NCBI RefSeq assembly: GCF_000564855.1
Contig: NZ_AYXG01000173.1
Location: 1 to 53,176, forward strand
Source: Actinokineospora spheciospongiae
GTDB taxonomy: Bacteria > Actinomycetota > Actinomycetes > Mycobacteriales > Pseudonocardiaceae
Reading direction: 5' to 3'
DNA length: 53,176 nt
The stretch's first letter is position 1; each line of letters starts with the position of its first letter. Of the stretch, positions 3,618-38,868 are shown piece after piece. The translations under genes were made by a program, and so were the position numbers. Under the pieces are notes generated by a model. It saw only the letters and a program-made list of their open reading frames with translations. It searched no databases and was not told where the DNA came from.

Positions 3618-4885
3618 CGTGCGCGGTTCCTTCCGGGTTCCCGGGGGTTGTCCGGTGTCGGGCCGCGGTCGCGGTCGGTGCCGCGGACCGTGCCGTCGTC
3701 GGGGGCGGGGTCGTCGGTGAGGCCCGTGGGTGGGTGGCCGAGCTCCCAGGTGATGGTCTTGGTCATGCTGCCGTGGGTGTCGAACGGCTTGGCCCATCCT
3801 ATTTCGGTGAAGCGGCCGTTGCCGTTGTCGGAGGCCCCGGTGGCGATGTCGGACTGGCCCCGGTTGAAGTTGTAGCGGTCCTGGCCCTCGACGGTGACGA
3901 CCATGGTGACCCTGTTGCCCTCGACCTTGACGTTGCCGTGGCTCCAGATCTGGTAGCCGCCGACGGCCTTCTGCCAGTTCTCGGTCTTCGGGTAGGGCTC
4001 CGCGCCGGTGGGGGCACCGGTCATCGAGAAGTCGGTGCGGCCGGAGCGGATCAGCTCCTCCGCGGCCCGGGCAGCGCGGGTGACTTCCGAGTCCACCCCC
4101 TGGCGGATACCGGAGTCCTCCCGGTACGCCTTCTCGTAGTCCCACTCCTTCGGCGCACCGGTGTTGTCCCAGTAGTGCTCGTACATCTCCGTTGCGTCGG
4201 GCATGAGGCCGAGCGCTTGGGCGCCGCGCAACTGGGCCAGCCACTTCGCCTTCGCGAGGTGGTCGGAGAGTTCGGAGTCCGCGGAGTCGTAGGCGAAGTC
4301 CTCGTCGAACGTGAAGGTCGGCTTCTCCGGTGGGCCGGTGTGGTACTTGCCGTCGGCCGTGGTGGTGACATCGGCGTCGGCGAGGGTGGTGGCCCCGTGG
4401 TCATCGACGTTGCCGCCCGCGGCGGCGGTCAGGGCCGCGACGAGGCGGGAGTCGACCTCGCCCGCGATCCCCAGCACCCGGCCGACGCCCTCGGCGAGGA
4501 GCTGGGCGGTGCGCGGGCGGTCCGGGTCGGTCGAGGGGTCGTCGTCGCGGATCGAACCATCCGGACCGATGGTGAACCGGTTGGCCCGGGCGGTGGTCTC
4601 CAGCTCCTCGACTTGGCGGCGCAGGTCGTCCACGGCGTCGGCGGCGTCCTGCAACGCCTTCTGCACGTGGGCGGCCTCGGCGACGATGTGCTCGGCGCGA
4701 TCGCGCAACCCGCTGAGCGCGCCCCGCGCGTTGGTGGCGTTCTCCCCGTGCCAGAACAGCGGGCCGAACGACATGTCCAGCTCGTCCTGCAAGCCCAGGA
4801 TCTGCTCCTTGCGGCCGCGTACGGCCTGCGCGACCCCCTCCAGGGCGTCGGCGTTCCACGAGCGCACGTCGGCGTAGCTGGTCAT
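3614..4885 (-). CDS. Putative WXG100-type secreted protein, 423 aa
   Basis: The N-terminal 100 residues are a helical hairpin with FGPLFWHGENATNARGALSG (a W-x-G at the turn), followed by a coiled coil (VDDLRRQVEELETTARAN). Together these make the WXG100/ESX fold expected of type VII secretion substrates. A linker follows, then a C-terminal domain of about 190 residues (MYEHYWDNTGAPKEWDYEKA ... GQDRYNFNRGQSDIATG ... TKTITWELGHPP) and a disordered Pro/Arg tail. Proteins with this C-terminal region recur in actinomycetes without known function. The ATG at 4885 overlaps the preceding stop (ATGA), and its own stop overlaps the lipoprotein start (GTGA), so the three genes form one operon. Confidence 0.78.
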   Translation of the reverse strand: MTSYADVRSWNADALEGVAQAVRGRKEQILGLQDELDMSFGPLFWHGENATNARGALSGLRDRAEHIVAEAAHVQKALQDAADAVDDLRRQVEELETTARANRFTIGPDGSIRDDDPSTDPDRPRTAQLLAEGVGRVLGIAGEVDSRLVAALTAAAGGNVDDHGATTLADADVTTTADGKYHTGPPEKPTFTFDEDFAYDSADSELSDHLAKAKWLAQLRGAQALGLMPDATEMYEHYWDNTGAPKEWDYEKAYREDSGIRQGVDSEVTRAARAAEELIRSGRTDFSMTGAPTGAEPYPKTENWQKAVGGYQIWSHGNVKVEGNRVTMVVTVEGQDRYNFNRGQSDIATGASDNGNGRFTEIGWAKPFDTHGSMTKTITWELGHPPTGLTDDPAPDDGTVRGTDRDRGPTPDNPREPGRNRAR

Positions 4886-7226: not shown

Positions 7227-7646
7227 GTGGCCGTGGGTTCCTTGGAGACGACGGACGCGGTCCGGGGGCGGATGAGCAAGCAGCGCTCACGGGACACGGG
7301 GACCGAGATCGCGCTGCGGAAAGAGCTGCACGCCCTGGGTTTGCGCTACCGGGTGCACCGGCGGCCGGTGCGCGCGGTCCGCCGGGAGGCCGACGTGGTG
7401 TTCGGCCCGGTGAAGGTGGCGGTGTTCGTCGACGGGTGCTTCTGGCACGGCTGCCCGGAGCACGTGACCTGGCCGAAGAACAACGCCGACTTCTGGCGCT
7501 CGAAGATCGAGACCAACCGGTCCCGCGACCGCGACACAGACCGCAAGCTCGCCGACGACGGGTGGGCGGTCGTGCGGGTGTGGGAGCACGAGGACCCGCT
7601 CAGCGCCGCCCGGCGGGTGCGCGACCTCGTCGCCGAGCGGCGCTGA
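7227..7646 (+). CDS. vsr: Very short patch repair endonuclease (Vsr), solitary
   Basis: A 139-aa Vsr-type nuclease that nicks DNA 5' of T:G mismatches arising from 5-methylcytosine deamination. The family hallmarks are present: KQRSRDTGTEIALRKELHAL, then RREADVVFGP with the catalytic Asp, FVDGCFWHGCPEH (Zn-binding Cys/His and active-site His), and WAVVRVWEHE. The GTG at 7227 has AAGAGGA 5 nt upstream. No methyltransferase is adjacent; the nearest C5 methyltransferases are at 20107 and 37336. The 3' end overlaps the convergent MFS gene by 47 bp. Confidence 0.92.
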   Translation: MAVGSLETTDAVRGRMSKQRSRDTGTEIALRKELHALGLRYRVHRRPVRAVRREADVVFGPVKVAVFVDGCFWHGCPEHVTWPKNNADFWRSKIETNRSRDRDTDRKLADDGWAVVRVWEHEDPLSAARRVRDLVAERR

Positions 7647-20084: not shown

Positions 20085-20114
20085 TATGCAACGAAGTGCA
20101 ATGCAACTAGTTGC
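20085..20114. promoter_or_regulatory. Repeats and perfect palindrome, candidate PadR operator
   Basis: The 37-bp gap between padR and the methyltransferase holds ATGCAAC ... GTGCA ATGCAAC and the perfect 12-bp palindrome GCAACTAGTTGC (20103-20114), which overlaps the methyltransferase stop codon. PadR proteins bind ATGC-rich dyads near their own promoters, so autoregulation is plausible. Confidence 0.5.
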
Positions 20115-21138
20115 CTAGGTGATCCGCGACGCGCTCCGCGACCGCCCGCGCCAGCACCGGCGGCACCGCGTTCCCGATCTGCCGGGCGATCTCGATCTTC
20201 GTCCCGCACCACCGGAAGTCGTCCGGGAAGGTCTGCAACCGCGCCGCCTCCCGGTGCGTGATCGGCCGGTGGTGCTCCGGGTGCAGGTACCGACCTTTCT
20301 CCGGCTTGTAGAACTCGGTGCGGATGGTCAACGAGGGCTCGTCCCACCGCATCCGCCCCATGACGTCGGTCGTCCCGGTCTTCTTCTCCCGCCAGCACCG
20401 GGGCAGCAGCTCGTCCGGCAGGTCGAACCGCCCACCCCCCGGCGGCACCGCCCGGTACCGCGCCAGCGACAGCGCCGTCGGGTTGCGGCCCAGGTGCAAC
20501 TCGTCCGCGCGGAAGCACCCGGGCACCCGCCTGCCGAACACCTCGGTCACCCGTTCCGGCAGCGTGGTCGACACGGGCACCTCGGGAAGGTCCGCGATGG
20601 CCGTCTTGACCCCGTTCCAGTGCCCCTTCGGGTGCGTGGGCCCCGGCAGCGCGACCGCCCCCACCCGCGACCCGACCACGAACGCCCGCTTGCGCCGCTG
20701 CGGCACCCCGAAGTCCGCGGCGAGCAACAACCCCCAGGTCAGGGTGTACCCGCTGGCCGCGGCCTCCCGCGCCAACAACCCGAACTCGGCGGACCCCAGG
20801 AACCGGTCGACGTTCTCGATCACGAACACCTTCGGCCGTGCCCGGTGCACGAACCGGAAGTACTCCTTCCACAACGCGTTGCGTGGGTCGTCCACGTCCC
20901 GCGACCCGAGGCTGGAGAACCCCTGGCACGGCGGTCCCCCGATGATCACATCCGCCTCCGGGATCTCCCCGACCCCGGCGATGTCACCCCAGTGCACGTG
21001 CCCGGCCCCGAAGTTCGCCGCGTAGGTGGCCGCCGCCGCCAGGTCGTGCTCGACCGCCAACACCGGCTCGAAGCCCGAGCGGAACCCCTCGCTCAGCCCA
21101 CCGCAGCCCGCGAACAGGTCGATCACCGAATACCCCAC
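20107..21138 (-). CDS. DNA (cytosine-5) methyltransferase, solitary
   Basis: A 343-aa Dcm/HhaI-type enzyme that transfers a methyl group from SAM to cytosine C5. Motif I SVIDLFAGCGGLSEGF, motif IV GGPPCQGFSS with catalytic Cys71, motif VI VIENVDRF, motif VIII QRRKRAFVVGS and motif X RQIGNAVPP are all present. The target recognition region is about 200-290. The GTG at 21138 is the first sensible start, with GTG 21126 an alternative. No cognate restriction nuclease or vsr is adjacent. The sequence differs clearly from the methyltransferase at 37336. Confidence 0.93.
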   Translation of the reverse strand: MGYSVIDLFAGCGGLSEGFRSGFEPVLAVEHDLAAAATYAANFGAGHVHWGDIAGVGEIPEADVIIGGPPCQGFSSLGSRDVDDPRNALWKEYFRFVHRARPKVFVIENVDRFLGSAEFGLLAREAAASGYTLTWGLLLAADFGVPQRRKRAFVVGSRVGAVALPGPTHPKGHWNGVKTAIADLPEVPVSTTLPERVTEVFGRRVPGCFRADELHLGRNPTALSLARYRAVPPGGGRFDLPDELLPRCWREKKTGTTDVMGRMRWDEPSLTIRTEFYKPEKGRYLHPEHHRPITHREAARLQTFPDDFRWCGTKIEIARQIGNAVPPVLARAVAERVADHLGN

Positions 21139-21310
21139 ACCCGTCAGGCTAGCCGGCCCCGCCCCCGCCACCCCGGCTCGCTCGCCGGCGACGCGATTCC
21201 GGTCGCCCCGTGGCCGTGGCGGTGACCTGTTTCCACGGACTCGCCTCCGCCCTCCCAGCGGTCGAGGTACGCTCCCGCCGTATGGGTTCCGGGGGGAGGA
21301 ACGGGCCGCG

Positions 21311-21745
21311 ATGAAGACGCCCGACGAGTGGCTGCGCGATTTCGAGACGCGGGTGGCCGACGCGCGCGAGCGGTCGGTCCGGTTGCAGGAGGGGCTGGCC
21401 CAGGCCGACGGCGCGGCGTCCTCGGCGGACGGTGCGATCGCCGTGCGGGTGTCGCCGAACGGGGCGTTGCAGGACATCCGGCTCGGCCAGGCGTGCGCCG
21501 GGCGCTCCCCGGAGCGGCTGGCCGCGGAGATCGTGGCCGTCGCCCGCCAGGCCCAGCGCGCCGCCGCGGCCAAGGTCGTCGAGGCGTTCGAGGCCGTCGG
21601 CGAGGGCGGGTCCGACACCCTCCGGGTGATCACCGACTACCTGCCGCCGCCCGAGGGCGACGACACCGCCACCCCGCCGCCGTCCCCGCTGGACGACGAC
21701 GGGGACTTCAGCGACGACTCCATCCTGCGTCGCGGCCGTCGCTGA
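21311..21745 (+). CDS. YbaB/EbfC-family protein
   Basis: A 144-aa protein with the YbaB/EbfC pattern: an N-terminal helix (WLRDFETRVADARERSVRLQ), a central sheet (GAIAVRVSPNGALQDIRLG) and a long C-terminal helix (ERLAAEIVAVARQAQRAAAA), then an acidic tail. Classical YbaB is a nucleoid protein, but in actinobacteria this family often opens WXG100/ESX effector operons, as here. ATG 21311 follows GGGGGGAGG-like purines. The next gene starts 18 bp downstream. Confidence 0.82.
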   Translation: MKTPDEWLRDFETRVADARERSVRLQEGLAQADGAASSADGAIAVRVSPNGALQDIRLGQACAGRSPERLAAEIVAVARQAQRAAAAKVVEAFEAVGEGGSDTLRVITDYLPPPEGDDTATPPPSPLDDDGDFSDDSILRRGRR

Positions 21746-26320: not shown

Positions 26321-29300
26321 GTGGGCGGGACGTCGGTGCGCACGGTGTGCTCGTACTGCGGCGTGGGCTGCGGCATCGTGCTCGACATCGGGATCGGACC
26401 CGACGGCACCCGCACGGCGCTCAAGGCCGTCGGCGACAAGCAGCACCCCACCAACGCGGGCAGGCTCTGCACCAAGGGCGCCACCAGCGCCGACCTGCTC
26501 GCCGCCCCCGACCGCCTCGACACCGCCCTGGTCCGCCCCGAGCGCGGCGCCGAACCCGTGCGCACCCCCGTCGACCAGGCCATCACCGACACCGCCCGCA
26601 GGCTGCGCGCCCTCCTCGACGAGCACGGCCCGGACGCGCTGTCGTTCTACGTGTCCGGGCAGATGACCCTGGAGGCGCAGTACCTGGCGAACAAGCTGGC
26701 CAAGGGGTTCATCGGCACCAACCAGATCGAGTCCAACTCGCGGCTGTGCATGGCCAGCGCGGGCACCGGCTACAAGCTTTCCCTGGGCGCCGACGGGCCG
26801 CCCGGCTCCTACGACGACTTCGACCGCGCCGACGTCTTCCTGGTCACCGGCGCCAACATGGCCGACTGCCACCCCATCCTGTTCCTGCGGATGATGGACC
26901 GGGTCAAGGCGGGCGCCAAGCTCATCGTGGTCGACCCGCGCCGCAGCGCCACCGCCGACAAGGCCGACCTGTTCCTGCGGATCGAACCCGGCACCGACCT
27001 GGCGCTGCTCAACGGCCTGCTGCACCTGCTCGTGGAGAACGGCCACACCGACCCCGACTTCATCGCCGCGCACACCGAGGGCTGGGACGCCCTGCCCGAC
27101 TTCCTCGCCGACTACACCCCCGCCACCGTCGCCGAGACCACCGGCATCCCCGAGGCCGACCTGCGCCGCGCCGCCGAGCTGATCGGCACCGCCGGGGAGT
27201 GGATGAGCTGCTGGACCATGGGCCTCAACCAGAGCACCCACGGCACCTGGAACACCAACGCCCTGGTCAACCTGCACCTGGCCACCGGGGCGATCTGCCG
27301 CCCCGGCAGCGGCCCGTTCTCCCTCACCGGCCAGCCCAACGCCATGGGTGGCCGGGAGATGGGCTACATGGGCCCCGGCCTCCCCGGGCAGCGCAGCGTC
27401 CTCGCCGACAACGACCGCGCGTTCACCGAGGACGTGTGGGGCCTGCCGGAGGGGACCCTGCGCACCGAGGCGGGCACCGGCACCGTCGACATGTTCGCCA
27501 GGATGGCGGCCGGGGAGATCAAAGCCTGTTGGATCATCTGCACCAACCCGGTCGCGTCGGTGGCCAACCGCAGGACCGTGCTGGAGGGCCTGGAACGGGC
27601 CGAGCTGGTGATCACCCAGGACGTGTTCGCCGCCACCGAGACCAACGCCTACGCCGACGTGGTGCTGCCCGCGGCGATGTGGGTCGAGGGGGAGGGGGTG
27701 CTGATCAACTCCGAGCGGAACCTGACCCTGGTGCCGAAGTCGGTGACCCCACCGGGGGAGGCCCTGCCGGACTGGCTGATCATCGCCAGGGTCGCCCGCG
27801 AAATGGGCTTCGCCGACGCGTTCGACTACGCCTGCGCCGAGGACGTGTTCGCCGAGATCAAGCGCTTCCACAACCCGAAGACCGGCTACGACCTGCGCGG
27901 GGTCACCTACGACCGGCTCCGCGAGACCCCGGTCCAGTGGCCCAGCGCCCCGGCGGGCCCCGCGCGCAACCCCATCCGCTACCGCGACCTGGTCTTCCCC
28001 ACGCCCAGCGGCAAGGCCCAGTTCTTCGCCCGCCCGCACCTGCCCGCCCGCGAGATGCCGGACGAGGACTACCCGTTCGTCCTCAACACCGGCCGGGTCC
28101 AGCACCAGTGGCACACGCTCACGAAGACGGGCAAGGTCGCCAAGCTCACCAGGCTCAACCCGGGCCCGTTCGTGGAGCTGAACCCGGCGGACGCGGCGGC
28201 GCTGGAGGTCGGGGACGGCGACCCGGTCGAGGTGGCGTCCCGCCGGGGCCGGGCCGTGCTGCCCGCGGTGGTCACCGACCGGGTGCGGCCGGGGAGCCTG
28301 TTCGCCCCGTTCCACTGGAACGACCTGTTCGGCGAGTACCTGAGCATCAACGCGGTGACCAACGACGCGGTGGACCCGCTGTCGTTCCAACCGGAGCTGA
28401 AGGTGTGCGCGGTGGCCCTGGCCAAGGTCGCCTCGGTGACCCCGGCGCCCGATCCCGGTCCCACCCTGGTCGCACCCACCCCCGAGGGCGGCCCCGCCGC
28501 CATCCTGGCCCAGGCCCTCGGCCTGCCCGCGCTCACCCCGCCCCCGCTGGGCGACGCGGAGAAGACCTACCTGGCGGGCTTCCTCTCCGGTGTCGGCGCG
28601 GCCACGAGCGCCCCTGGTGTGCCGGTGCTGCCCCCGGGTTCCCCGCTGTCGACCGAGCAGCAGCACTGGGTCAACGGCCTCCTGGCGGGCCTGTTCTCCC
28701 GCTCCGCGCCGGGCCGCGAGGTCCTGGTCCTGTGGGCGTCGCAGACCGGCAACGCCGAGGGGGTCGCGGCGGCCGTCGCCGAGGCGGTGGCCGGAGCCGG
28801 GCACCGAGCCCGCGTCCTGTGCATGTCCGACATCACCCCCCGCTCCCTGCCCAGGGAATCGGACCTCCTGTTCATCAGCAGCACCTTCGGCGACGGGGAC
28901 GCCCCCGACAACGGCACCGACTTCTGGTCCGAACTGTCCACAGTGGATGCGACAGCCCTGGCGGGCGTCCGCTACGCCGTCCTCGCCCTGGGCGACTCGA
29001 ACTACGACAACTTCTGCGGCCACGGCAAACGGCTCGACCAGCGCCTGGGCGAACTGGGCGCCCACCGCCTGGCCCCCAGGACCGACTGCGAACCCGACTA
29101 CGAAACCCCCGCCCACCAGTGGCTCGACCGGGTCCTGGCCGCACTGGCGGGTTCACCCGCCACCACCGCCGAGCGAGTCGCCCCCGCCCCCACCGGCCGC
29201 GCCAAGCCCGACGTCCGCACGGTCACCCTCACCGGAAACCGCCTCCTGAGCCTCCCCGGCGCCCAGAAGGAAGTCCGCCAGTTCACCTTCGACCTCACCG

Positions 29301-30316
29301 GCACCGACCTCACCTACGACGTGGGCGACGCCCTGGGCATCTGGCCGGACAACGACCCCCTCCTGGTCCAGGAATGGCTCACCGTCACCGGCCTGGACCC
29401 CGAGTCCACGGTGGACATCAAGGGCATCGGCGAGGTCCCCCTGCGGGAAGCCCTCACCCGGCACCTGGAAATCGCCAAGGTCACCCCCAACCTCCTGCAC
29501 TTCCTGGTCGACCACACCCAGGACAAAGACCTCAAGATCCTCCTCCGCCAAGACGACCGCGACGCCCTGTCCAAGTGGGCCTGGGGAAGGCAGGCGGTCG
29601 ACATCGCCGCCGAATACCCCCTGCGAGCAAGCGCCCAGGCCTGGGCCGACACCTTCAAGCGCCTGCAACCCCGCCAGTACTCGATCTCGTCGAGCCCGCT
29701 GACCGACCCCACCCGGGTCAGCCTCACCGTGTCGGTGGTCCGCTACGGAAACCCCCACGGCCGCCCCAGAACAGGCGTCTGCTCCGCCTACCTGGCCGAC
29801 GCCGCCCCCGACACCCGGGTCCCCGTCTTCATCCAGCGCTCCCCCCACTTCCGCCCCCCGCTCGACCCCGCCACCCCCGCCATCATGGTCGGCCCCGGCA
29901 CCGGCGTAGCCCCCTTCAAGGCCTTCCTTGACCACCGCCAAGCCAGGGGCGACAAAGCCCCCAACTGGCTCTTCTTCGGCGAACAACGGCAATCCACAGA
30001 CTTCTACTACCAAGAAGAACTCACCCACCACCACACCACAGGCACCCTCACCCGCCTCGACACGGCCTTCTCCCGAGACCAGAGGAACAAGGTCTACGTC
30101 CAAGACCGAATGCGAGAACAAGCCCCCACCCTCTGGACCTGGCTCGAACAAGGAGCCCACCTCTACATCTGCGGCGACGCCACCAGAATGGCCAAGGACG
30201 TCGACAAGGCCCTGCACGAGGTCATAGCCCACCAGGGCCACCTCACCCCAGAGGAAACCACGGCCTACGTCAAACGCCTCACCACCGAAAAGCGCTACGT
30301 CCGCGACGTCTACTGA
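26321..30316 (+). CDS. Fused assimilatory nitrate reductase / flavoprotein reductase
   Basis: A 1331-aa enzyme. Residues 1-about 700 form a molybdopterin oxidoreductase: 4Fe-4S ligands Cys10, Cys13, Cys17, Cys50 (CSYCGVGC ... RLC), the Mo-ligand region [13 protein letters not shown] (Cys143), [15 protein letters not shown], and [11 protein letters not shown] near the C-terminal lobe. Residues about 800-945 are a flavodoxin domain ([26 protein letters not shown]). Residues 960-1331 are a CYPOR/CysJ-type FAD/NADPH unit ([36 protein letters not shown]). Nitrate is therefore reduced to nitrite with electrons from NADPH through FAD and FMN in one polypeptide. GTG 26321 has GAAGGGGGAAGG upstream. 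No nitrite reductase is in the window. Confidence 0.93.
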
Positions 30317-30403: not shown

Positions 30404-31732
30404 TCAGTGGTTGGATTCCTCTCCTCGGGCCGCACATGTGCTTTCCCCACAGGTGTGATTGATGGATGCCGTCGAGGTGCTCAGGTGGAAGGCGACAGTG
30501 ATCAGACACCCTGGCACCGTGCCAAGAGCCGTCACTCGCGCTCGAAGCGTTGACAGTTGCGCGCCTCCTGTGTTGCGGCTGACGATCAGTGGTTTCCCTC
30601 CGTCGTTGAAAGCGAATGACTTCTTCATGGGAGCGCTTCTCAAGCCGAGGCGCCAGGTGAGCCAGTTGTGCACCGGAATCCCATTCCCAGCCACCATGTC
30701 CGCATCAACCTTGAGCACCACACCGATGACATTGTCGTCCGCGGCGCTGACCATGTTCGACGGACGTCGGGGTTCGGGCTCGTCGAAGTGGACCGCTCCT
30801 CGTTCGACGAGGTCGAAGCGACCGTCGTCCAGGACACCCAAACGATCGCTCAGCAAGCATTGCCGTAGCCGCGCGTAGCTCACCGGGTAGCGGCTGGTCA
30901 CCTCGGAAAAGAGTTCCTTCTGCGTCACCGGTCCATGCTCCGTGAGGACCGCGAGCATGGCTTCCAGAGTGTCCCCGTACGGTGTTCCCCTGCCTGAAGC
31001 CCAGCTTGTCAATGACCAGGTGCGCTCCAGCGGCACCTTTTGGAAGCGGTCGTCCTTCCTCATCGCCGCGTTGACCGCGCGCACCTCGTCACCCAACGCC
31101 TCCGCGATCTCCTCCGCGGTGCGTTCCTCACCCTCATCCAGCATCCAGAGGTAGGCGGAGTCGGTACGCTTGGACCTGCGGCGAACCCACGTCCCCGACG
31201 AAGTCCGGATGAGCGGGGGGTCGACTCCACCGAGCAGTACCGCGCACGGGAGTTCCGCCGGAATCCCCAGTGATTCGGCTCGTGGCCCCAGTTCGTGGCC
31301 CTGGTAGGGGGCCCCACTGATCAGCTCCGTCATGGCGTGGCGGAGCTGACCGGTCTTCGATGTCCAGTACCCCGTCGCGTCGTACCTCCAGAATCGCGGC
31401 CGCACCGCACCGGCTTCACGCAGCAGCGCATCCAGCACCAAGCCGTCCTCGCGAACCAACAAGCACGCGAAGTCCGCCTCCGGCACCGCGAGGGCCTCGT
31501 CCAGAAACGCTCGCGTCGCGGTTCTCCATCTCGGCTCGCGTTGGTCGCACTCGGCGATCAACCGAGCCTCGGCGTGACGGCTGATCTGTCGAACGCGCTC
31601 GCCGGTCAAGCCGTGCTTCCTGCCGATGGCGTGCAATGTCTGGCGGGCCCGACGGAGCTCGAGTATGTCTCGCTCTCGGGGTTCCCAGAAGTCGTGTGGC
31701 AGATCCAGTGCCGCCGACTCCACGATGTCCAC
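30404..31732 (-). CDS. Island protein with sigma-region-4-like HTH and a second winged HTH
   Basis: A 442-aa protein, last gene of the island operon. Residues 15-60 (WEPRERDILELRRARQTLHA, GLTGERVRQISRHAEARL) look like sigma region 4, with the ERVRQI helix typical of DNA recognition at the -35 box. Residues about 255-325 form a second winged HTH (LAVLTEHGPVTQKELFSEVT, LLSDRLGVLDDGRFDLVE). A C-terminal domain of unknown fold follows (LTWRLGLRSAPMKKSFAFND, ALGTVPGCLITVAFHL). There is no catalytic signature. It is probably a DNA-recognition or regulatory subunit of the defence system. It starts 17 bp after the 189-aa gene. Confidence 0.75.
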   Translation of the reverse strand: MDIVESAALDLPHDFWEPRERDILELRRARQTLHAIGRKHGLTGERVRQISRHAEARLIAECDQREPRWRTATRAFLDEALAVPEADFACLLVREDGLVLDALLREAGAVRPRFWRYDATGYWTSKTGQLRHAMTELISGAPYQGHELGPRAESLGIPAELPCAVLLGGVDPPLIRTSSGTWVRRRSKRTDSAYLWMLDEGEERTAEEIAEALGDEVRAVNAAMRKDDRFQKVPLERTWSLTSWASGRGTPYGDTLEAMLAVLTEHGPVTQKELFSEVTSRYPVSYARLRQCLLSDRLGVLDDGRFDLVERGAVHFDEPEPRRPSNMVSAADDNVIGVVLKVDADMVAGNGIPVHNWLTWRLGLRSAPMKKSFAFNDGGKPLIVSRNTGGAQLSTLRARVTALGTVPGCLITVAFHLSTSTASINHTCGESTCAARGEESNH

Positions 31733-31749
31733 GTTTATCGTCCCGGACC

Positions 31750-32319
31750 TCAGAGGAATTTGACGCGCAGGCCGCAGCGTTCAGCGATCCTGTTGAAGAG
31801 TTCTCGCTTGTCGGTCGGGGTGGGGTCCTCGAAAGTGCTCACCACACAAAGCTCCCATTCCATGGTGTCACCATTCGCGCCGGATTGCAGAGCCGCCCAC
31901 AGGAGGTGCTTGAAATCGCTCGCTGGTCCCCACGTCAGTCGAACCAGTTCGCCCTCCTTGCTCGCCGTGATGCGGAGCGGCTTGACACGCAGACTCTTCG
32001 GCTCCTCTTGCCAGCCCACTCCTAGGGCTCGGCGGATGAGTTCTTGCCTGCCCAGGGCGGGCTCGGTGATGTAGTCCTTGTACTTGCCGATGCCGTACCG
32101 GGCTCGACTGAACTCTTTCATAGGTCCGTCTTTGATCCACACCCGAGCTTGTTCCGCGGACATGGACCCCCGCAGACGTCCGCCCACGTCCGGGTGGTTG
32201 ACCCATTCGTTGTACATATTCGTGCGCGCGTTGGCGGAGAGGTTCGTCCATCCTCTCGCTTGTGCGTCCGCGAATATCTTTCCGACGACTTTTTCTTCAA
32301 TATTTTCGGGAACCGCCAT
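31750..32319 (-). CDS. Island protein of unknown function, 189 aa
   Basis: A soluble protein of 189 aa starting 2 bp after the helicase stop, with GAGGGGAG upstream. The N-terminal half is helical and rich in aromatic/Lys residues (NARTNMYNEWVNHPDVGGRL, FSRARYGIGKYKDYITEPAL); the C-terminal half is beta-rich (RVKPLRITASKEGELVRLTW, EWELCVVSTFED) and ends in RIAERCGLRVKFL. I recognise no family and no catalytic triad. Its tight spacing inside the operon argues that it is a core subunit. Confidence 0.7.
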   Translation of the reverse strand: MAVPENIEEKVVGKIFADAQARGWTNLSANARTNMYNEWVNHPDVGGRLRGSMSAEQARVWIKDGPMKEFSRARYGIGKYKDYITEPALGRQELIRRALGVGWQEEPKSLRVKPLRITASKEGELVRLTWGPASDFKHLLWAALQSGANGDTMEWELCVVSTFEDPTPTDKRELFNRIAERCGLRVKFL

Positions 32320-32321
32320 GG

Positions 32322-33983
32322 TCAGAAACTCCCCTCGAATGGTGGAAATTGAAGCCGGACTTCATCCGCGGCCGTCTCCAGGTCGGCCGCATCCTCGATC
32401 CAGTGATCCAAGAGCTTGCCCGCTGTCTTGTCGCTGAACGTCACACCGGTGCCTTCGCGCTTCCTGATGCGCAAGTATTCCGCCTCGGCCTCCAGCGACC
32501 TTCGGAGTTCGAGAGTGGCCGCCACCCGTCGGATGTCGGAAACGAAGTCCAGAACTCTGAGCGAGTCTTTGCCCGGGCTCAACCGCAGCCCTCGCCCCAG
32601 TTGCTGGACAAAGATGCGCCTGCTGTGGGTGACCCGGAGGAAGGCGATCAGGTTCACGTCAGGCACGTCGACGCCTTCGTTGAAGATGTCGACGCAAGTC
32701 ATGATCGGAACCCTGCCCAACCGGAACTCGTTGAGCAGCACCTGGCGTCGTTGCCTGGGGACACCGCTGTGCAGGCACGTGGCCCGCCGCCAGAGCGCGT
32801 CCGCCCCGGTCAACATGGTCGCTATCCGCTCGGCGTGCTCGATGGTCTGGCAGAAGACGATCGCTCGCGGGTCGGTGGTCCGCCGCCAAGCGGTTCGCAA
32901 CCGCTCGACGATTTCCTCGTCGCGTTGTGGGAGGAACAGCACCCTGTTCAGCTCGCGCACCGAGTAGCCGTGCTTGCTGGCCTGTCTGACCACGTCCCAG
33001 TCGATGTTGTCCACGTAGAGCCGGTAGTCGACGGTCGAGAGGAACCCGTTCGCCATGCCCTCGGCGATCCCCATGGTGAAGCTCGGCGTTCCGAACCGCG
33101 CGGTGATGTCGAACTTGTCGCCGCGCCACGGCGTCGCCGTGACCCCCAGTTGCGCCGCCGAGGAGCACAGGTCGAGCAAGCGGGCGAACATGCCTTGTTC
33201 GCCGACGTGGTGTGTCTCGTCAACCATGACGAGGGCGGGCTCGAAACCCGCTTGGACGGCACCCAGCGCGGTCTCCACTGTGCCGATCACCACGCCGTCG
33301 TAGGTCTTCGGCTTGGTGTCCCCCGTTGCCAATCGCGTCGGGGTCGCCTTGTCGATGTGCCGCCACATGGCCTTCTCGAGTTGTGCCACGAGCTCCTTCG
33401 TGTGCGCGGTCACCAGGACGGACGCTCCGGGCTTGTTCTCCAGGAACCGGCTGATGACCTCACCACCCACGACCGTCTTGCCCAACCCCGTCGCGAGGAC
33501 GAGGAGCGCCCTCCCCTGGCCGTGCAGGTCGCGCTCGACCGCCGCCACGGCCGCGCCCTGGTAGTCGCGCAACCTGTACGCGTTCGGCACCCTGTTCGGC
33601 ATTCGCCGCCAGATCGCCTCCAGGGTCGGCCCATCCCAGACCGTGATCTTGATCCCCACGCCTTGGAGCGCCTGCCTGCGCTCCAAGGCGGACTTGGTCA
33701 AACCGGTGTTGGTGACCAGTACCGCCTTTTCGGCTTGGTACTTGGTGAAAGCCCTTTCCAAGTCGTCCACGCCTTGACGATCCACCGCTCCGCGGCTCGA
33801 CCACTTGCACTGGAAGATCCACTGCTCGCCGTCGCGAACCGCGAGGAGGTCCGCACCGTCGTCCCCGGCACCGTCGACCACGCGCACATCGACGAACCCG
33901 AGATACCACAGCGCACGCTCCACGGCGATGGGCAACCCGGTCGCCCCTCCTCGGAGGAGCTCCTCGCCGGAGAGGAAGTTCAC
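32322..33983 (-). CDS. Mrr-type nuclease fused to SF2 helicase
   Basis: A 553-aa protein. Residues 1-120 form an Mrr-like PD-(D/E)XK nuclease: GADLLAVRDGEQWIFQCKW gives the catalytic Asp45 and Q-x-K (58-60). Residues about 135-520 form a superfamily II helicase: Walker A ATGLGKT (164-170), Walker B DETHH (255-259), motif III GVTATPWRGD, motif V-like CVDIFNEGVDVPDVN and motif VI QLGRGLR. Mrr domains cut modified DNA in many type IV systems, so this subunit may combine cleavage and translocation. GTG 33983 overlaps the GHKL stop (GTGA), so the two are translated together. Confidence 0.9.
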   Translation of the reverse strand: MNFLSGEELLRGGATGLPIAVERALWYLGFVDVRVVDGAGDDGADLLAVRDGEQWIFQCKWSSRGAVDRQGVDDLERAFTKYQAEKAVLVTNTGLTKSALERRQALQGVGIKITVWDGPTLEAIWRRMPNRVPNAYRLRDYQGAAVAAVERDLHGQGRALLVLATGLGKTVVGGEVISRFLENKPGASVLVTAHTKELVAQLEKAMWRHIDKATPTRLATGDTKPKTYDGVVIGTVETALGAVQAGFEPALVMVDETHHVGEQGMFARLLDLCSSAAQLGVTATPWRGDKFDITARFGTPSFTMGIAEGMANGFLSTVDYRLYVDNIDWDVVRQASKHGYSVRELNRVLFLPQRDEEIVERLRTAWRRTTDPRAIVFCQTIEHAERIATMLTGADALWRRATCLHSGVPRQRRQVLLNEFRLGRVPIMTCVDIFNEGVDVPDVNLIAFLRVTHSRRIFVQQLGRGLRLSPGKDSLRVLDFVSDIRRVAATLELRRSLEAEAEYLRIRKREGTGVTFSDKTAGKLLDHWIEDAADLETAADEVRLQFPPFEGSF

Positions 33984-36334
33984 GCTGTCGTCACCAGTTC
34001 TCTGGCGAGCAGCTCGACGCTGAGGCGCGTGCGCTGCAGCTGGGCGAGCTCTTGTTCGACGCGGAAGCCGACCACCATCGCGATGTCGTTCATGTAGCCG
34101 ACCACTTTGGCCACGCTCAGCCGCTGAGCGGAAGGCGAAGTCAGCGAGGTGTACGGACCGGTGAACACCCTGCCATCCATGAAAACCTCGGGTCGGGTCT
34201 CCAGCAAGCGCACCGAGAACAGCGGTGGGGTGTAGAGCAGGAACTCACCGTTCTGGCCCAGATCTCCCATGACGGCGTCCCGTCCGTTGGCGATCACCTC
34301 GTTCTCCGTTGCCGTCCGCTCATCCGCTGACAAGGTCTGGAAGACCTCTTCGGCGATGGGATCGATCCGAACGGCCATGAGCCTGCGCACCTCGGCAAGC
34401 AATTCCCGAGCCTGGGTTGCAACCACATTGGGGTCGGCCAGGGTGTCCGGCAAGCACCGTGCGCGCAGTGCGCTCACGATCTCGGCGAGACCGCGGTTCG
34501 TCTCCGCGCGTACCTTGAGCACCGCGGCGATCTCGATGAGCAGCAGTTCCGCGGGATCGCTGCCCACTTTCGCGAACGCCTCGTGCGCCGGGTCGTAGTA
34601 GGCCGTCGCCGTTCCGCCCGCACCTTGGACCAGCAGGACCGGTGTTTCACTGTTGTCCTCGGCTCGTAGTCGGACAACGTCGAGCCTCCGGGTGGTCACC
34701 TGGAGGTCACCCATCCGGGGCAGCCCGAAATCCCTGGTCAGCGCGGTCACCACAGTCGAGGCTCCATCGTAGCGGGCCAACTGGTCCTGAAAGGTTTCCT
34801 TCTTCGGTGGCGCCGTGGACGACTCCACGTCCACGGTGTGCTTCGAATCCTCCGAACCGGTGGAATCTGTGTCCGCGCGCTGGGCACTCGACACGCCCAG
34901 CGCCTCGAGCACCGCGGCTTCGTCGGCCTGGTCCGGAGTCTGCTCCCGGGCACGGCCCACCTTCGCGTGGTTTCCCTGAGCGTCGTGATGGAGGACTGCT
35001 TCCCACCAAATCGTGTCCGGCTGGTACTCCTCCTTCCTCTGGTGGAACAGTTGAGCCCAGCGCCGGGTCTGCTCGTGGATCGGACGCGTGCCATCACCCG
35101 GGATCAGGCAGCGGGTGCCCGCCGCATTGCGTCGGTACCCCTTGTGCAGTCGTCCCAGCGGACTGGTGTTCGGTTCGTAGCCCGCCCGTTTCGCCTTCTC
35201 CGGCTGGAGGGGACCGATGCCGCGGAGGAAATCCACGGCCGCGCGCCAACTGCGGTCGCTGTATTCGAACGCGTTCTTCTGGTAGGTCACTGGCACGTGG
35301 TCCAAGTGGATCTCCCCGATCAGTCTCCCGCCCTGGTTGGCGAGTTCGATCGGGTACTCCATGTCCACGGCACCCAAGGGGTCATTGGGATTCTGCCAGT
35401 TGAAGAGCTGCTTGTCCCACTGGAGGATCTTGCGGCCGTTGCGCAGGAAATCGATGCCGAACTCCCGCTTGTCGAGATGGCGTTGGACACCGAGCCAGCC
35501 GTGGATTCTGCGCTCGCGCCGCGTGAGCCGGTCGCTGCCGCACTGATCGCACTTCCCCTTGTCCGGAACCTGCCAGTTCCCGCAGTTGAAGCACGCCTCC
35601 GCGGGCTCGAACTTCTGGTCGATGGGGATGTAGGCCGGGATCTTCTCGGATGATGCCCCGCTGCCGAAGACGACGAAGCGGTCGTCACCCCACCGGCAGT
35701 GGCGCCGTGGATGGACGCGCTGCCCCTGCACCCACAGCTCGAACGGGTTGTTCTCCAAGATCCAAGAGTAGGTCTTGCCCAGAGTGGTGCGAAGGTTGGC
35801 GGCATTCCTGCGCAGCCATTCTGCGCGCTCGGGGTTCAGCCTGCCGATTTCGATGCGAGTGCCGTGCTTGGTCGGGTCGTCCTTCGGCTCGTGGATGTCG
35901 TCGGCTTCGTAGTCGTCGCCGATGCGGTCGAGATCGATCTCCACCCCGATCCACTCCGGGTCGCCGACACGAGTGGTCAGGACGCGCGTTCGCCGCCCGA
36001 GGCGGGCGGTACTCACGTTGAACCCCATGCCGAACAGGCCGAGCTTGTCGAACCGGTCGTTGCTCGACCACCCGGCGCGAACAGATTGCTCAAGCCGTTC
36101 GTAGGTCATGCCGCGCCCGGTGTCGCTGATGACGACTTCGGCATCGGCGGGTCGGGAGTTGAGACTCGGCAGGGTGACGCTGACCTTGAATCCGTCCGGC
36201 CACGAGGTACCGCTGCGGACGATCTCGTTGAAGTCGTCAAACGAGTTGTCGATCAACTCGGCGATGCACTGCCATTCATCGAACTCGATCTCACCGAGCA
36301 TGCGCAGAATACGCGCAGATGGTGTGATCCGCAT
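33980..36334 (-). CDS. GHKL ATPase of the paraMORC/MutL-like group
   Basis: A 784-aa protein. The Bergerat fold is complete: N-box AELIDNSFDD (Glu26, Asn30), G1 DTGRGM (71-76), G2 GLFGMGFN (about 99-106). A zinc ribbon (CFNCGNWQV ... CDQCGS) sits near residues 255-275, followed by an S5-like region (WLGVQRHLDKREFGIDFLRN, VYRNGRKILQWDK-like segment, HLDHVPVTYQKNAFEYSD). The C-terminal half is helical and lacks a nuclease signature. Prokaryotic MORC-like GHKL ATPases are known mainly from restriction-modification neighbourhoods with SF2 helicases (family knowledge), exactly as here. The likely role is an ATP-driven DNA clamp that directs nuclease activity. ATG 36334 follows GAGGGGAGA. Confidence 0.88.
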   Translation of the reverse strand: MRITPSARILRMLGEIEFDEWQCIAELIDNSFDDFNEIVRSGTSWPDGFKVSVTLPSLNSRPADAEVVISDTGRGMTYERLEQSVRAGWSSNDRFDKLGLFGMGFNVSTARLGRRTRVLTTRVGDPEWIGVEIDLDRIGDDYEADDIHEPKDDPTKHGTRIEIGRLNPERAEWLRRNAANLRTTLGKTYSWILENNPFELWVQGQRVHPRRHCRWGDDRFVVFGSGASSEKIPAYIPIDQKFEPAEACFNCGNWQVPDKGKCDQCGSDRLTRRERRIHGWLGVQRHLDKREFGIDFLRNGRKILQWDKQLFNWQNPNDPLGAVDMEYPIELANQGGRLIGEIHLDHVPVTYQKNAFEYSDRSWRAAVDFLRGIGPLQPEKAKRAGYEPNTSPLGRLHKGYRRNAAGTRCLIPGDGTRPIHEQTRRWAQLFHQRKEEYQPDTIWWEAVLHHDAQGNHAKVGRAREQTPDQADEAAVLEALGVSSAQRADTDSTGSEDSKHTVDVESSTAPPKKETFQDQLARYDGASTVVTALTRDFGLPRMGDLQVTTRRLDVVRLRAEDNSETPVLLVQGAGGTATAYYDPAHEAFAKVGSDPAELLLIEIAAVLKVRAETNRGLAEIVSALRARCLPDTLADPNVVATQARELLAEVRRLMAVRIDPIAEEVFQTLSADERTATENEVIANGRDAVMGDLGQNGEFLLYTPPLFSVRLLETRPEVFMDGRVFTGPYTSLTSPSAQRLSVAKVVGYMNDIAMVVGFRVEQELAQLQRTRLSVELLARELVTTA

Positions 36335-36501
36335 TCGTCTCCCCTCGCGACCATCCTCCCGATGGATGGGGAGGTGCTTGAGTCGTCATTTTGGTTCGCT
36401 GAACACCGGAGCGACCCAGGTGTCGTCCGGCAACGTAGCGAAGACTGTAGGGGAAGTCGAGGGTACGTGTAACCCTGATTTGAGAAATTTCGGAAACCGC
36501 T
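36335..36501. other. 167-bp intergenic region, likely promoter of the GHKL-helicase operon
   Basis: The gap between vsr and the GHKL gene is the most A/T-rich part of the island (ATTTGAGAAATTTCGG around 36478-36493) and contains an imperfect dyad GGGTACGTGTAACCC (36461-36475). It probably holds a promoter separating dcm-vsr from the ATPase operon. No gene or transcription terminator is visible. Confidence 0.45.
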
Positions 36502-37329
36502 TTAGGCTAACATCCTCTTCCGGTTCGGCGGCGGACCGCCCTGGACGCCCGAACCCCCGCGGGAGTCAGAGCCTCCACCGCGGCGCGCTCGCACGGTGTC
36601 CTCGATCCGCCGCGCGCAGTCATCCACGGGTTCGTGCTCCCACACCCGGATCACCCGCCAACCCGCCTCGTCCAGCAGTCTGTCCGTTTCGGCGTCGCGC
36701 GCTTGGTTCCCCTCGATCTTGGCGCTCCAGAACACCGCGTTCTTGCTCGCCGGGCGGTAGTGCTCGGGGCAGCCGTGCCAGAAGCAGCCATCCACGAACA
36801 CGGCGACCCGTGCGGCGGTGAAGACAACATCCGCTCGACGGCGGATGCCCTTGACGGGTTGGGCATCGACGCGGTACCGCAAACCCCTGGAGTGGAGGGC
36901 GGTGCGCAGGCGCAACTCAATCCGGGTGTCCTTGCGCTTGTTCGCCCGCATCACCGCGCGACTGCTCGCTGATGAAGCCCACGACCCCTCGATCTTGAGC
37001 ATCGCGAACTTGAACCGGCCACTCCTGCGTGCTTCCGACCAAGCGAGTTCGAGGTTCTCGACCCGGGAAGTGCGATCAACCTCGCCGATGTAGGATTCTT
37101 GGGTTTTCCCGGCGTCGGACCATCGCAGGTAAGCTCGGATTCTTCGCGTTTTGCTGTAGAGGCGGAGTGACACCGATGCGGTGGCGGTGCGGCCGTCCGG
37201 CAAAAGCAGAGTACGGTTGCCGCGACCACCTGCCGCTTCGTCTTGCTCCGCGGAGCGCTCCGCGCGTGGTAGTCCGGATTGGGGCCGCCATGCGGAGTCC
37301 TCAGGCGTTGGGCTCCGCCAAGAAGGCAT
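36502..37329 (-). CDS. vsr: Vsr-type endonuclease with N-terminal extension
   Basis: A 275-aa protein. The C-terminal ~140 residues are a Vsr nuclease (RKDTRIELRLRTALHSRG, RRRADVVFTAARVAVFVDG with the catalytic Asp, CFWHGCPEHY with Zn and catalytic His, WRVIRVWEHE). The first ~130 residues are an extra domain with RTATASVSLRLYSKTRRIRA and LRWSDAGKTQESYIGEV, absent from the 139-aa Vsr at 7227. It may be a DNA- or modification-binding module. The ATG begins 7 bp after the dcm stop, so the pair is one operon: methyltransferase plus T:G-mismatch repair nuclease. The tail is Gly/Arg-rich. Confidence 0.9.
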   Translation of the reverse strand: MPSWRSPTPEDSAWRPQSGLPRAERSAEQDEAAGGRGNRTLLLPDGRTATASVSLRLYSKTRRIRAYLRWSDAGKTQESYIGEVDRTSRVENLELAWSEARRSGRFKFAMLKIEGSWASSASSRAVMRANKRKDTRIELRLRTALHSRGLRYRVDAQPVKGIRRRADVVFTAARVAVFVDGCFWHGCPEHYRPASKNAVFWSAKIEGNQARDAETDRLLDEAGWRVIRVWEHEPVDDCARRIEDTVRARRGGGSDSRGGSGVQGGPPPNRKRMLA

Positions 37330-37335
37330 CCGGAC

Positions 37336-38637
37336 TCACTTCCCGAGGTCGGGGAGTTCTCCCACGCTCGCCGCGGCCAGTGCTCGCGCGACAGCCTTGG
37401 CGAACACCTTGCCGAGCAGCACGGGAACCGCGTTGCCCAGTTGTCGCATCTGCTCACCCCGAGGGCCTTTGAATCGCCACCAGTCGGGAAAAGTCATCAC
37501 TCTTGCCGTTTCGCGCACGGTCATGTACCGGTATGTTCCGTCGTCGAGCAACATGACGGATTCTCCACCGGGAACGCCGTGGACGCCCGCTTTCACGGTT
37601 TTCGCCGGCTTGTCCAGGTTGTTCGGTGTATGCCCCGCGTAAATACGGGCCCCGGGCCACCCTATGTGATGAGTCCATTCTTCTTCCGGGTGGTCCGCAC
37701 CGTTGACCACATCTCTTGGCAGCGGCTTGAAGTCCTCGGCGTCGGGGTTCGAGTAGAGCGCGTCTCGCAATGTCCGCCAAGGCAGTAGGTCCGAGCCGTC
37801 CAAAACCTTCTTGTCCTTGATTGACTCTTTGATCCGCTTGCGTACCTCAGGTGGAACCTTTTTGTGCCGTCGCCAATAACTGCCGTCAAGTTGACTTTTG
37901 AACAGAGCGGCTTGCGAGTGTGTTCGTTTCGGCTTGAAGACCTGATCCCACATCTCCTGGGTGATCCCGAGATCCGCGCGGAAGGCGACGATGATCACGC
38001 GGTTGCGGACTTGGGGGACGCCGTAGTCGGCAGCGTTGACCAGCGCGACGTTCACCACGTAGCGCTGAGCGGAGTCAAGGGGGACGACCTTGTCCCGGTT
38101 CTGGAGGATGGCATCGTGTTCCTCCCAGTCCACATCGTCGGACCGCTCTTCGAAAGGCAAGGAGAGTTCACGCAGGATGTAGTCGAAGTACGGGCTGAAA
38201 GAAGGCCTCAACAGCCCTCGGACGTTCTCGCACACGACAGCCAAGGGACGAGTTTCACGGACTACGCGGAACAGTTCGGGAAACATGTTGCGTGCGTCTT
38301 CATCCCCCTTGTGCACGCCGCCGAGGCTGAACGGCTGACATGGTGGACCGCCCGCTACGACATCCACCCCCTGGGAGCGCAGGTAGCTGAAGTCGACTTC
38401 GCGGACATCACCCTCTACTAAGGGCCACTTCTCCATCAGGTCGACGGGGATGTGGTCTTCCCCCTTGCGCTTGACGGCCAAGTTCGCCAACAGCGTCTCG
38501 CACGCCCGCTTGGAGAACTCATTGACCACGAGGTGCCTGAAGCCCGCCTCGTGCATGGCCTGCGCGAGACCGCCACCGCCGGAGAACAGTTCGACGCTGG
38601 TACCGACCTCTAGGGGAAACGCAGCCTGGGGAAACAC
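37336..38637 (-). CDS. dcm: DNA (cytosine-5) methyltransferase of the defence island
   Basis: A 433-aa C5 methyltransferase. Motif I VELFSGGGGLAQAM, motif IV GGPPCQPFSLGG (catalytic Cys99), motif VI VVCENVRGLL, motif VIII QVRNRVIIVAF and motif X RQLGNAVPVLLG are intact. The target recognition region (about 205-345) is longer than in the enzyme at 20107, so its target sequence should differ. The start is uncertain: GTG 38637 is chosen because motif I begins at about residue 15 from it; the in-frame upstream extension to 38724 looks unconserved. First gene of the island, 155 bp from the tRNA gene. Confidence 0.9.
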   Translation of the reverse strand: MFPQAAFPLEVGTSVELFSGGGGLAQAMHEAGFRHLVVNEFSKRACETLLANLAVKRKGEDHIPVDLMEKWPLVEGDVREVDFSYLRSQGVDVVAGGPPCQPFSLGGVHKGDEDARNMFPELFRVVRETRPLAVVCENVRGLLRPSFSPYFDYILRELSLPFEERSDDVDWEEHDAILQNRDKVVPLDSAQRYVVNVALVNAADYGVPQVRNRVIIVAFRADLGITQEMWDQVFKPKRTHSQAALFKSQLDGSYWRRHKKVPPEVRKRIKESIKDKKVLDGSDLLPWRTLRDALYSNPDAEDFKPLPRDVVNGADHPEEEWTHHIGWPGARIYAGHTPNNLDKPAKTVKAGVHGVPGGESVMLLDDGTYRYMTVRETARVMTFPDWWRFKGPRGEQMRQLGNAVPVLLGKVFAKAVARALAAASVGELPDLGK

Positions 38638-38792: not shown

Positions 38793-38868
38793 TGGTGCCC
38801 CCGGCAGGATTCGAACCTGCGACGCACGGTTTAGGAAACCGATGCTCTATCCCCTGAGCTACGAGGGC
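38793..38868 (-). tRNA. tRNA-Arg (anticodon CCU), CCA encoded
   Basis: A complete cloverleaf on the minus strand: acceptor GCCCTCG / CGGGGGC (one G:T pair), D arm GCTC...GAGC, anticodon loop TTCCTAA with CCT at 34-36, T arm GCAGG-TTCGAAT-CCTGC, discriminator A, then CCA in the DNA. The T-T opposition at the top of the anticodon stem is the only mismatch. The anticodon reads AGG (Arg). The 3' end faces the defence island, the usual orientation of an integration site. Confidence 0.93.

Follow-up and report, generated by a model that had tools for sequence, protein, structure and literature searches.

The DNA analysed here, called the window throughout, is a stretch of 53,176 nucleotides (nt) from Actinokineospora spheciospongiae (assembly GCF_000564855.1, contig NZ_AYXG01000173.1, positions 1 to 53,176 of the forward strand), and our subject is an island at positions 30404-38637 that carries the genes of a candidate restriction-modification system built around a MORC-type ATPase. 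All results are computational. A check of open reading frames (ORFs) found six of them intact in the island, every one on the minus strand, in the order Dcm, Vsr, MORC-type ATPase, a fusion of an Mrr nuclease to a superfamily 2 (SF2) helicase, a protein of 189 amino acids (aa), and a sigma-4 protein. The Dcm and Vsr genes are 6 nt apart, the Mrr/SF2 and 189-aa genes 2 nt, and the 189-aa and sigma-4 genes 17 nt, the ATPase and Mrr/SF2 genes overlap by 4 nt, and the 167 nt between the Vsr and ATPase genes is the sole long spacing. The guanine-plus-cytosine (GC) content of the island is 63.7%, compared to 72.3% for the remainder of the window, and it is below that of all 58 island-sized windows outside the island (70.3-75.1%). 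Both the six same-facing, closely spaced genes and the lower GC content had been claimed in an earlier note on this DNA (the original prediction), and both were confirmed. The island is flanked on one side by the 3′ end of a tRNA-Arg(CCT) gene and on the other by a gene for a 1331-aa oxidoreductase fusion protein.

The Dcm gene (37336-38637, minus strand, with the ORF open to 38724) encodes a C5-cytosine DNA methyltransferase of 433 aa, as indicated by Pfam PF00145 (E 8.6e-52) and PADLOC MTase_II (3.8e-99), and the family profile found the HaeIII and HhaI methyltransferases in the PDB. Mean identity was 48% in its target-recognition region and 67% in its catalytic part, with the borders set by hand. 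The Vsr gene (36502-37329, minus strand) encodes an endonuclease whose Vsr domain (aa 120-233, 36631-36972) follows an N-terminal extension of about 120 aa and was identified by Pfam Vsr (3.1e-19), NCBIfam vsr (1.4e-35) and a profile match to the structure 1cw0 (3.1e-21). Because the extension has an ORF of its own in two relatives, where the two ORFs stand in inverted order (L008, 9178-9992; L023, 291-1234), it is a separable domain. The idea that this Dcm is the sole C5 methyltransferase of the genome proved wrong, as there are two further DNA_methylase places. A second C5 methyltransferase gene lies at 20107-21633 of the window (minus strand); of 10 same-genus relatives searched, 6 gave a strong match to it (E<1e-160). 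There is also a second Vsr gene outside the island (match at 7269-7451, plus strand, in an ORF ending at 7646), 13 kb from that methyltransferase gene.

The ATPase gene (33980-36334, minus strand) encodes a GHKL protein of 784 aa, with its GHKL region at about aa 21-127 (35954-36274; Pfam HATPase_c_3 E 6.6e-09). For this protein and for the Mrr/SF2 protein, 17 sequences were aligned, namely the window's own and those of 16 of 27 related loci, from 28 at hand. It was found that E26xxxN30, D71xGxGM76 and GLFGMGFN at 99-106, which we take to be the N-box, G1 and G2 motifs of GHKL ATP binding, are invariant in this alignment, as are the four cysteines (C248, C251, C262 and C265; aa 248-265, 35540-35593) of the zinc ribbon that the original prediction had described. 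A pattern comparison placed the S5 motif, GIDFLRNGRKI, at aa 293-303; it differs from the published MORC pattern GhXhhpXXRhl (PMC2292703, available in part) by one mismatch (K for h) and fits at the other positions, whereas two distant relatives match it throughout (GIDIIRNGRVI, GIDLIRNGRAI) and one, with GISLLRQGRTI, has T at the window's mismatch position. The single ATPase sequence matched nothing in the PDB at E 0.01; the family profile matched MORC3 (5ix1, E 9.9e-06) and MORC4 (E 0.011), with no other GHKL match at E<=1. Because of the near-fit of S5, and because MORC3 and MORC4 were the only GHKL matches, the ATPase appears to stand nearer to MORC proper than to paraMORC, the label it had been given earlier. 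MORC is a eukaryotic chromatin protein, of which the ATPase of the island is a bacterial relative.

The gene at 32322-33983 (minus strand) encodes an Mrr_cat nuclease domain (aa 20-123, 33615-33926; Pfam E 1.9e-17) fused to a RadD/XPB-type SF2 helicase (ResIII 1.2e-22, Helicase_C 9.7e-18). The Mrr residues D45, Q58 and K60 and the SF2 motifs ATGLGKT (Walker A), DETHH and QQLGRGLR (motif VI) are invariant in the 17 aligned sequences. The best PDB match of the helicase was RadD (6jde, E 5.9e-28), followed by a type I R subunit, 7clg, which we take to be SauUSI, and XPB, with XPBII within the first five matches. The PADLOC model mREase_IV matched the fusion protein at E 2.4e-36. The ranking of the PDB matches fits the Rad25-like class of helicases with an N-terminal restriction-endonuclease-fold (RE-fold) nuclease that Iyer, Abhiman and Aravind described in 2008, as given in the accessible part of that paper.

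The 189-aa protein (31750-32319, minus strand) had been called unknown, and indeed it has no match in Pfam or NCBIfam; in PADLOC (2023), neither it nor the ATPase nor the sigma-4 protein matched any model at E 0.1. Structure modelling predicted a restriction-enzyme-like fold resembling PD-(D/E)XK, lacking the conserved D..ExK, at aa 88-189 (31753-32058). The modelled fold is closest to EndoMS, and against a viral structure library it gave one match under E 0.001, an HTH_XRE phage protein. Among 296 genomes of the phylum, the family was found in the window's own copy only, and its two sequence patterns were confirmed in 0 of 49 stretches of viral contigs; the pattern scan misses distant members, because a search with the ATPase reached 9 viral contigs that carry the protein. 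From its linkage, described below, the 189-aa protein is the core partner of the MORC ATPase and the Mrr/SF2 protein. In one locus with a complete island (L012, 5488-7197, minus strand), the gene adjoining Vsr joins a PIN_8 domain to a 189-aa-like sequence; PIN_8 genes are also found directly after the 189-aa homologue in L031 (by annotation also in L072) and beside Vsr in L079.

The last gene (30404-31732, minus strand) encodes the sigma-4 protein of 442 aa (Pfam Sigma70_r4 E 9.8e-09), which has a helix-turn-helix (HTH) at aa 18-57 (31562-31681), winged helices at about aa 185-300 and, as predicted by structure modelling, a B3-like DNA-reading domain at its C terminus (aa 329-434, 30431-30748). 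Co-variation, evaluated on 15 dereplicated rows from the 22 complete loci of 28, was dropped as proof that this protein is a specificity subunit, because Dcm co-varies with Mrr/SF2 equally strongly. Pfam domain searches bore out the earlier assignments of Dcm, Vsr, GHKL ATPase, Mrr/SF2 fusion and sigma-4 protein.

A scan of 84,980 species genomes for the ATPase gave 27 relatives, Actinobacteria according to the record titles; it used short exact peptide patterns, so that the true number is at least 27. Two of these loci end at a contig edge right after the ATPase gene and 25 are untruncated, and gene presence was scored by profile searches. Dcm is linked in 27/27 relatives and Vsr in 26/27 (as two ORFs in L008 and L023), and in the untruncated loci Mrr/SF2 adjoins MORC in 25/25, the 189-aa protein is present in 24/25 (missing from L009) and the sigma-4 protein in 23/25, the exceptions being L003 and L011, the latter with only a short ORF that is an apparent remnant. 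The gene set of the original prediction therefore co-occurs in other actinobacterial genomes, with all six genes in 22 of the 25. The order MORC, Mrr/SF2, 189-aa protein, sigma-4 protein is constant wherever those genes occur, whereas the Dcm-Vsr pair is found in four arrangements, on either flank and either strand. Where it lies on the strand opposite to the core, it is upstream in L002, L007, L010, L012 and L021 and downstream in L004 and L022; on the core's own strand, it is downstream in L005 and L006, and the fourth arrangement is upstream on that strand. That the linkage survives such rearrangement argues for a shared function of the pair and the core. The ratio of nonsynonymous to synonymous substitution rates (dN/dS) was 0.05-0.31 (maximum 0.304) in 34 of 36 gene-pair comparisons, the other two being one saturated comparison and one without the gene. 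Between L011 and L013, the core genes are close (dN 0.07-0.11) and Dcm (dN 0.41) and Vsr (dN 0.34) are not, as if the pair had been swapped.

A further nuclease gene accompanies many of these islands. A GIY-YIG gene of the Eco29kI family was found in 19 of the 25 untruncated relatives, with Dcm as its nearest gene in 18 and Vsr in one, at 14-773 nt from the nearest of the two or overlapping it; in five (L014, L015, L019, L026, L027) it is shortened to 150-242 aa, compared to about 286-404 aa elsewhere. It was not found in the other 6, and in the window no such gene was detected by hidden Markov model (E<=1e-3, ORFs of at least 60 aa) or by tblastn (best E 0.027). Eco29kI cleaves CCGC^GG and its methyltransferase produces 5-methylcytosine, according to the accessible parts of PMC3039593 and PMC1952068. 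As the target-recognition region of the island Dcm is more variable than its catalytic part, action at the same site is no more than possible. The core and Dcm persist in the 5 loci with a shortened nuclease, and also in the window and the 6 loci in which none was found, which suggests that the core itself exploits the methyl mark. Eco29kI and sigma-4 as mutual alternatives were ruled out, since 17 of 23 sigma-4 loci carry an Eco29kI gene or fragment.

Distant ATPases, with about 29-43% identity within the best segment, were found at 21 loci: five plasmid records, two genomes of the same order or family, and 14 viral contigs. Mrr/SF2 and Dcm are each present in 19/21 (6/7 plasmids and genomes, 13/14 viral contigs), the 189-aa protein in 14/21 (5/7 and 9/14), Vsr in 12/21 (4/7 and 8/14), and an Eco29kI-family gene in 8/21; the sigma-4 protein was found in 0/21. 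When the 189-aa protein was the sole query against 72,556 plasmids, it matched 4 records, all within the five that bear the ATPase, and in these the helicase gene adjoins the 189-aa gene with MORC just before, an insertion sequence intervening in one; the sigma-4 protein as query matched no plasmid record. From these counts, MORC, Mrr/SF2 and Dcm look like the ancestral machine, joined by Vsr and the 189-aa protein at more than half of the distant loci, and the sigma-4 gene looks like a later gain in one actinobacterial branch. Some viral-contig relatives may be prophages or islands, because the flanks of L079 and L080, the two checked of the 14, each hold an integrase. For the window copy itself, no support for a prophage origin was seen.

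The island is a horizontally acquired bacterial gene set at a variable site. The tRNA-Arg(CCT) gene (38793-38868, minus strand; ARAGORN, Rfam tRNA) has its 3′ end toward the island and forms the hotspot border, and the far neighbour is the 1331-aa gene (26321-30316, plus strand), a molybdopterin oxidoreductase fused to flavodoxin/FAD/NAD reductase domains. The ATPase was not found in 15 same-genus relatives searched; weak matches in G313 (E 1.4e-5) and G311 (E 2.5e-4) were taken to reflect general GHKL similarity and were not counted. In the nine genus relatives compared, the same tRNA has other neighbours: the three predicted ORFs nearest to it are found in no other genome of this set in seven and are common to L056 and L059, and deeper genes are common to L054, L055, L056 and L059. 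The slot in these nine lacks island genes except for an ORF resembling Vsr in L056, L058 and L059 and a weak match to Dcm in L051 and L058, which are perhaps the second Dcm and Vsr of the genus. In the VIA lists, absence of a family from a list does not exclude it. In the sister genome G297, the slot (L050, 131-14011) holds a 324-aa gene without a PADLOC match, then DrmD, DrmMI, DrmA and DrmB of DISARM, and the oxidoreductase gene is about 25 kb away. Because it holds the island here and DISARM genes in G297, the tRNA slot is a defence hotspot, with defence genes in at least two genomes. In G302, a manual reading found a slot gap of 4.6 kb with two ClpP-like ORFs. An integrative element with attachment repeats found no support, as the tRNA 3′ end was not paired with the far border among the largest 20 of 24 direct-repeat families. 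A tRNA gene was seen in 6 of 21 near loci scanned (L003, L006, L007, L013, L018, L022), and in L006 (Acrocarpospora) it is again tRNA-Arg(CCT), at 129-204, about 4 kb from MORC at 4361. Hotspot integration and sporadic distribution of MORC systems were already noted by Iyer et al. (PMC2292703, in the part available).

Upstream of the MORC gene, a repeated sequence was noticed first in the relatives and was then matched to the PafBC/RecA-NDp promoter consensus, tTGTCRgtg-N8-TAnnnT, as given in PMC5656591. With the window counted, 18 of 28 loci (L002, L011-L022, L024-L028) have such a site within 250 nt upstream of the ATPase gene, 12 of them exact, 3 with one mismatch and 3 with two. The hosts are Streptomyces, Kitasatospora, Actinacidiphila, Embleya, Nocardia and one Actinomadura, and many of the Streptomyces loci are closely related, so that the 18 cases are not independent. 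As a control, the site was found in 1/27, 0/25 and 0/23 regions upstream of Dcm, Mrr/SF2 and sigma-4 genes, respectively, and over 1.098 Mb of strand-bases from 27 loci, every one of the 12 exact sites lay upstream of MORC, as did 15 of the 17 found when up to one mismatch was allowed. The window has no such site there (best match 5 mismatches), and the 14 distant loci tested of 21 gave no match with two mismatches or fewer. No other shared operator emerged, as 7- to 9-mers upstream of MORC in 12 loci were not above shuffles. An AT-rich palindrome, TTGCATAAATATGCAA, lies upstream of MORC in L005 with a close variant in L002 and is a possible candidate operator. PafBC responds to single-stranded DNA, according to the accessible part of PMC11804915, and no work pairing PafBC with restriction or anti-phage functions was found by title and abstract among the matches listed.

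We favour the reading that the island is an ATP-dependent 5-methylcytosine restriction-modification system of the MORC class, and hold it, with the roles proposed below, at slightly better than even confidence; that islands of this class restrict unmarked DNA we consider likely. What the sequence itself shows is which genes are present, how they are linked, that their catalytic motifs are intact, that the distribution is patchy and that DISARM shares the hotspot; the B3-like and PD-(D/E)XK-like folds come from modelling, and the order of events, the self/non-self logic and the clamp role are our inference. Dcm would methylate a site in host DNA as the self mark, and Vsr would repair T:G mismatches arising from deamination of methylated cytosine. 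The restriction machine would comprise the MORC ATPase, the Mrr/SF2 translocase, the 189-aa protein and the sigma-4 protein. An unmethylated site would be recognised, most likely by the B3-like end of the sigma-4 protein, the SF2 motor would translocate from it, the MORC dimer would shut as an ATP-gated clamp, holding or looping the DNA, and the Mrr domain would perform the cut of unmarked phage DNA. The 189-aa protein would serve as a partner or scaffold, and its restriction-like fold may have lost catalytic activity.

This restriction reading is favoured because Dcm and Vsr remain linked although the pair moves among four arrangements, because the Mrr, SF2 and GHKL active-site motifs are invariant in the aligned sequences, because the plasmid matches of the 189-aa protein all sit beside helicase and MORC, because the ATPase is missing from the same-genus relatives searched and DISARM occupies the slot in G297, and because CglI and NgoAVII offer a precedent for cleavage by a B3 domain, an SF2 ATPase and a C5 methyltransferase (PMC4267653). 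The sigma-4 protein is proposed as the target reader because B3 domains read targets in known restriction enzymes, an assignment that we make tentatively and at somewhat less than even confidence. EcoRII and BfiI are examples of such enzymes. In NgoAVII, too, the B3 domain reads the target (PMC4267653).

The HTH, winged-helix and B3-like domains, which all indicate DNA binding, would also suit a transcriptional controller resembling a C protein, with the target read instead by MORC, the helicase or the 189-aa protein. Such a role would fit a gene that stands last in its block and is missing from the 21 distant loci, L003 and L011, but the absence of a common 7- to 9-mer above shuffles in the 12 loci tested and the use of B3 domains for target reading in known restriction systems make it doubtful, if still a serious possibility. 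The frequent Eco29kI-family gene near Dcm or Vsr raises the alternative that an Eco29kI-like type II enzyme makes the first cut and the core assists it by degrading the DNA, in which case the window copy would be a leftover that lacks the main nuclease. We regard this as unlikely, since core and Dcm are retained where that gene is short or not found, the genes are under purifying selection where measured, and the Mrr site is intact.

The PafBC-type promoter, rare at the control genes, is a reason to consider damage-induced repair rather than defence, in which MORC, Vsr, the RadD-like helicase and the nucleases would fix deaminated methylcytosine or breaks from a linked restriction enzyme. The closeness of the helicase to RadD, the presence of Vsr and the likeness of the modelled 189-aa fold to EndoMS agree with it, and Iyer et al. 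allowed mismatch-repair recruitment of some MORC/paraMORC versions (PMC2292703). However, the window itself lacks the promoter, the distribution is patchy, with copies on plasmids and viral contigs and in a hotspot shared with DISARM, and immune operons under damage control are reported elsewhere (PMC13373217); we hold repair to be quite unlikely. Finally, the Mrr family membership, the mREase_IV match and the resemblance of the helicase to 7clg would suit an Mrr/SF2 protein that restricts foreign methylated DNA in a methyl-directed, type IV-like manner, with Dcm as a passenger. With Dcm linked in every near locus, that activity would be suicidal unless the sites differ, and we consider it very improbable.

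A more specific form of the restriction reading, which we put forward as speculation and consider rather unlikely in its entirety, is a restriction class with two keys: the Dcm self mark would be read by the sigma-4/B3 subunit, and in the Streptomyces/Nocardia branch PafBC would switch on MORC-Mrr/SF2 in response to single-stranded DNA from phage replication or damage, with MORC as the ATP-gated clamp that licenses the nuclease. If the favoured reading is true, the ancestor of eukaryotic MORC chromatin proteins would be tied to methylation-guided DNA cutting, and if the two-key form is true, the bacterial MORC clamp would be a direct model for eukaryotic MORC compaction.

Compared to known systems, the island gave no match to MZA at the curated NCBIfam cut-offs: MzaA scored 11.7 of 800 bits and MzaB 14 of 850 bits. 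With MZA it has in common an ATPase of the MutL/GHKL type and a sigma-70-type protein. The sigma-4 protein, which had been offered as a distinction from MZA, does not serve as one, because NCBIfam names MzaA a sigma-70 family protein too. DISARM is a methylation-linked system that includes a helicase, and in G297 it occupies this hotspot on the tRNA side, but neither DrmA nor DrmB was among the PADLOC matches listed (best 25 of 61 for Dcm, best 25 of 44 for Mrr/SF2). The Eco29kI type II system is alike in its association with Dcm and Vsr in most near relatives, if not in the window, whereas type II systems have no counterpart to the ATP-dependent core. CglI, NgoAVII and BceSIV share a C5 methyltransferase, an SF2 ATPase and a B3-domain subunit with the island, and there cutting requires ATP hydrolysis (PMC4267653).

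The closest likeness is to the type 1 MORC systems of Iyer, Abhiman and Aravind, who in 2008 predicted that MORC, a Rad25-like helicase with an RE-fold nuclease, Dcm and Vsr form restriction systems (PMC2292703, as far as available). The island has this helicase and nuclease as Mrr_cat and ResIII/Helicase_C directly beside MORC, and the combination is therefore not little described, as had been claimed. An experimental bacterial MORC restriction system was not found in the literature among the matches listed. The observation of the original prediction was thus confirmed and its interpretation supported in part, with several points corrected: its two novel subunits indeed lack a PADLOC (2023) model, but the system type is that of 2008, and the B3-like domain, the Eco29kI-type nuclease of relatives and the damage-type promoter of many of them had not been registered. 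The accessible 2008 text gives, for type 1, no 189-aa partner, sigma-4/winged-helix/B3 protein, Vsr extension or PafBC promoter, and places a VP1/RAV (B3) protein in the SWI2/SNF2 type. New beside that prediction are the predicted B3-like end of the sigma-4 protein, the 189-aa partner, the Eco29kI association and the PafBC-type promoter. Because the island supplies a recurrent, defined parts list with intact catalytic sites, an unmodelled partner family, a predicted DNA reader and a promoter clue, the 2008 prediction becomes testable.

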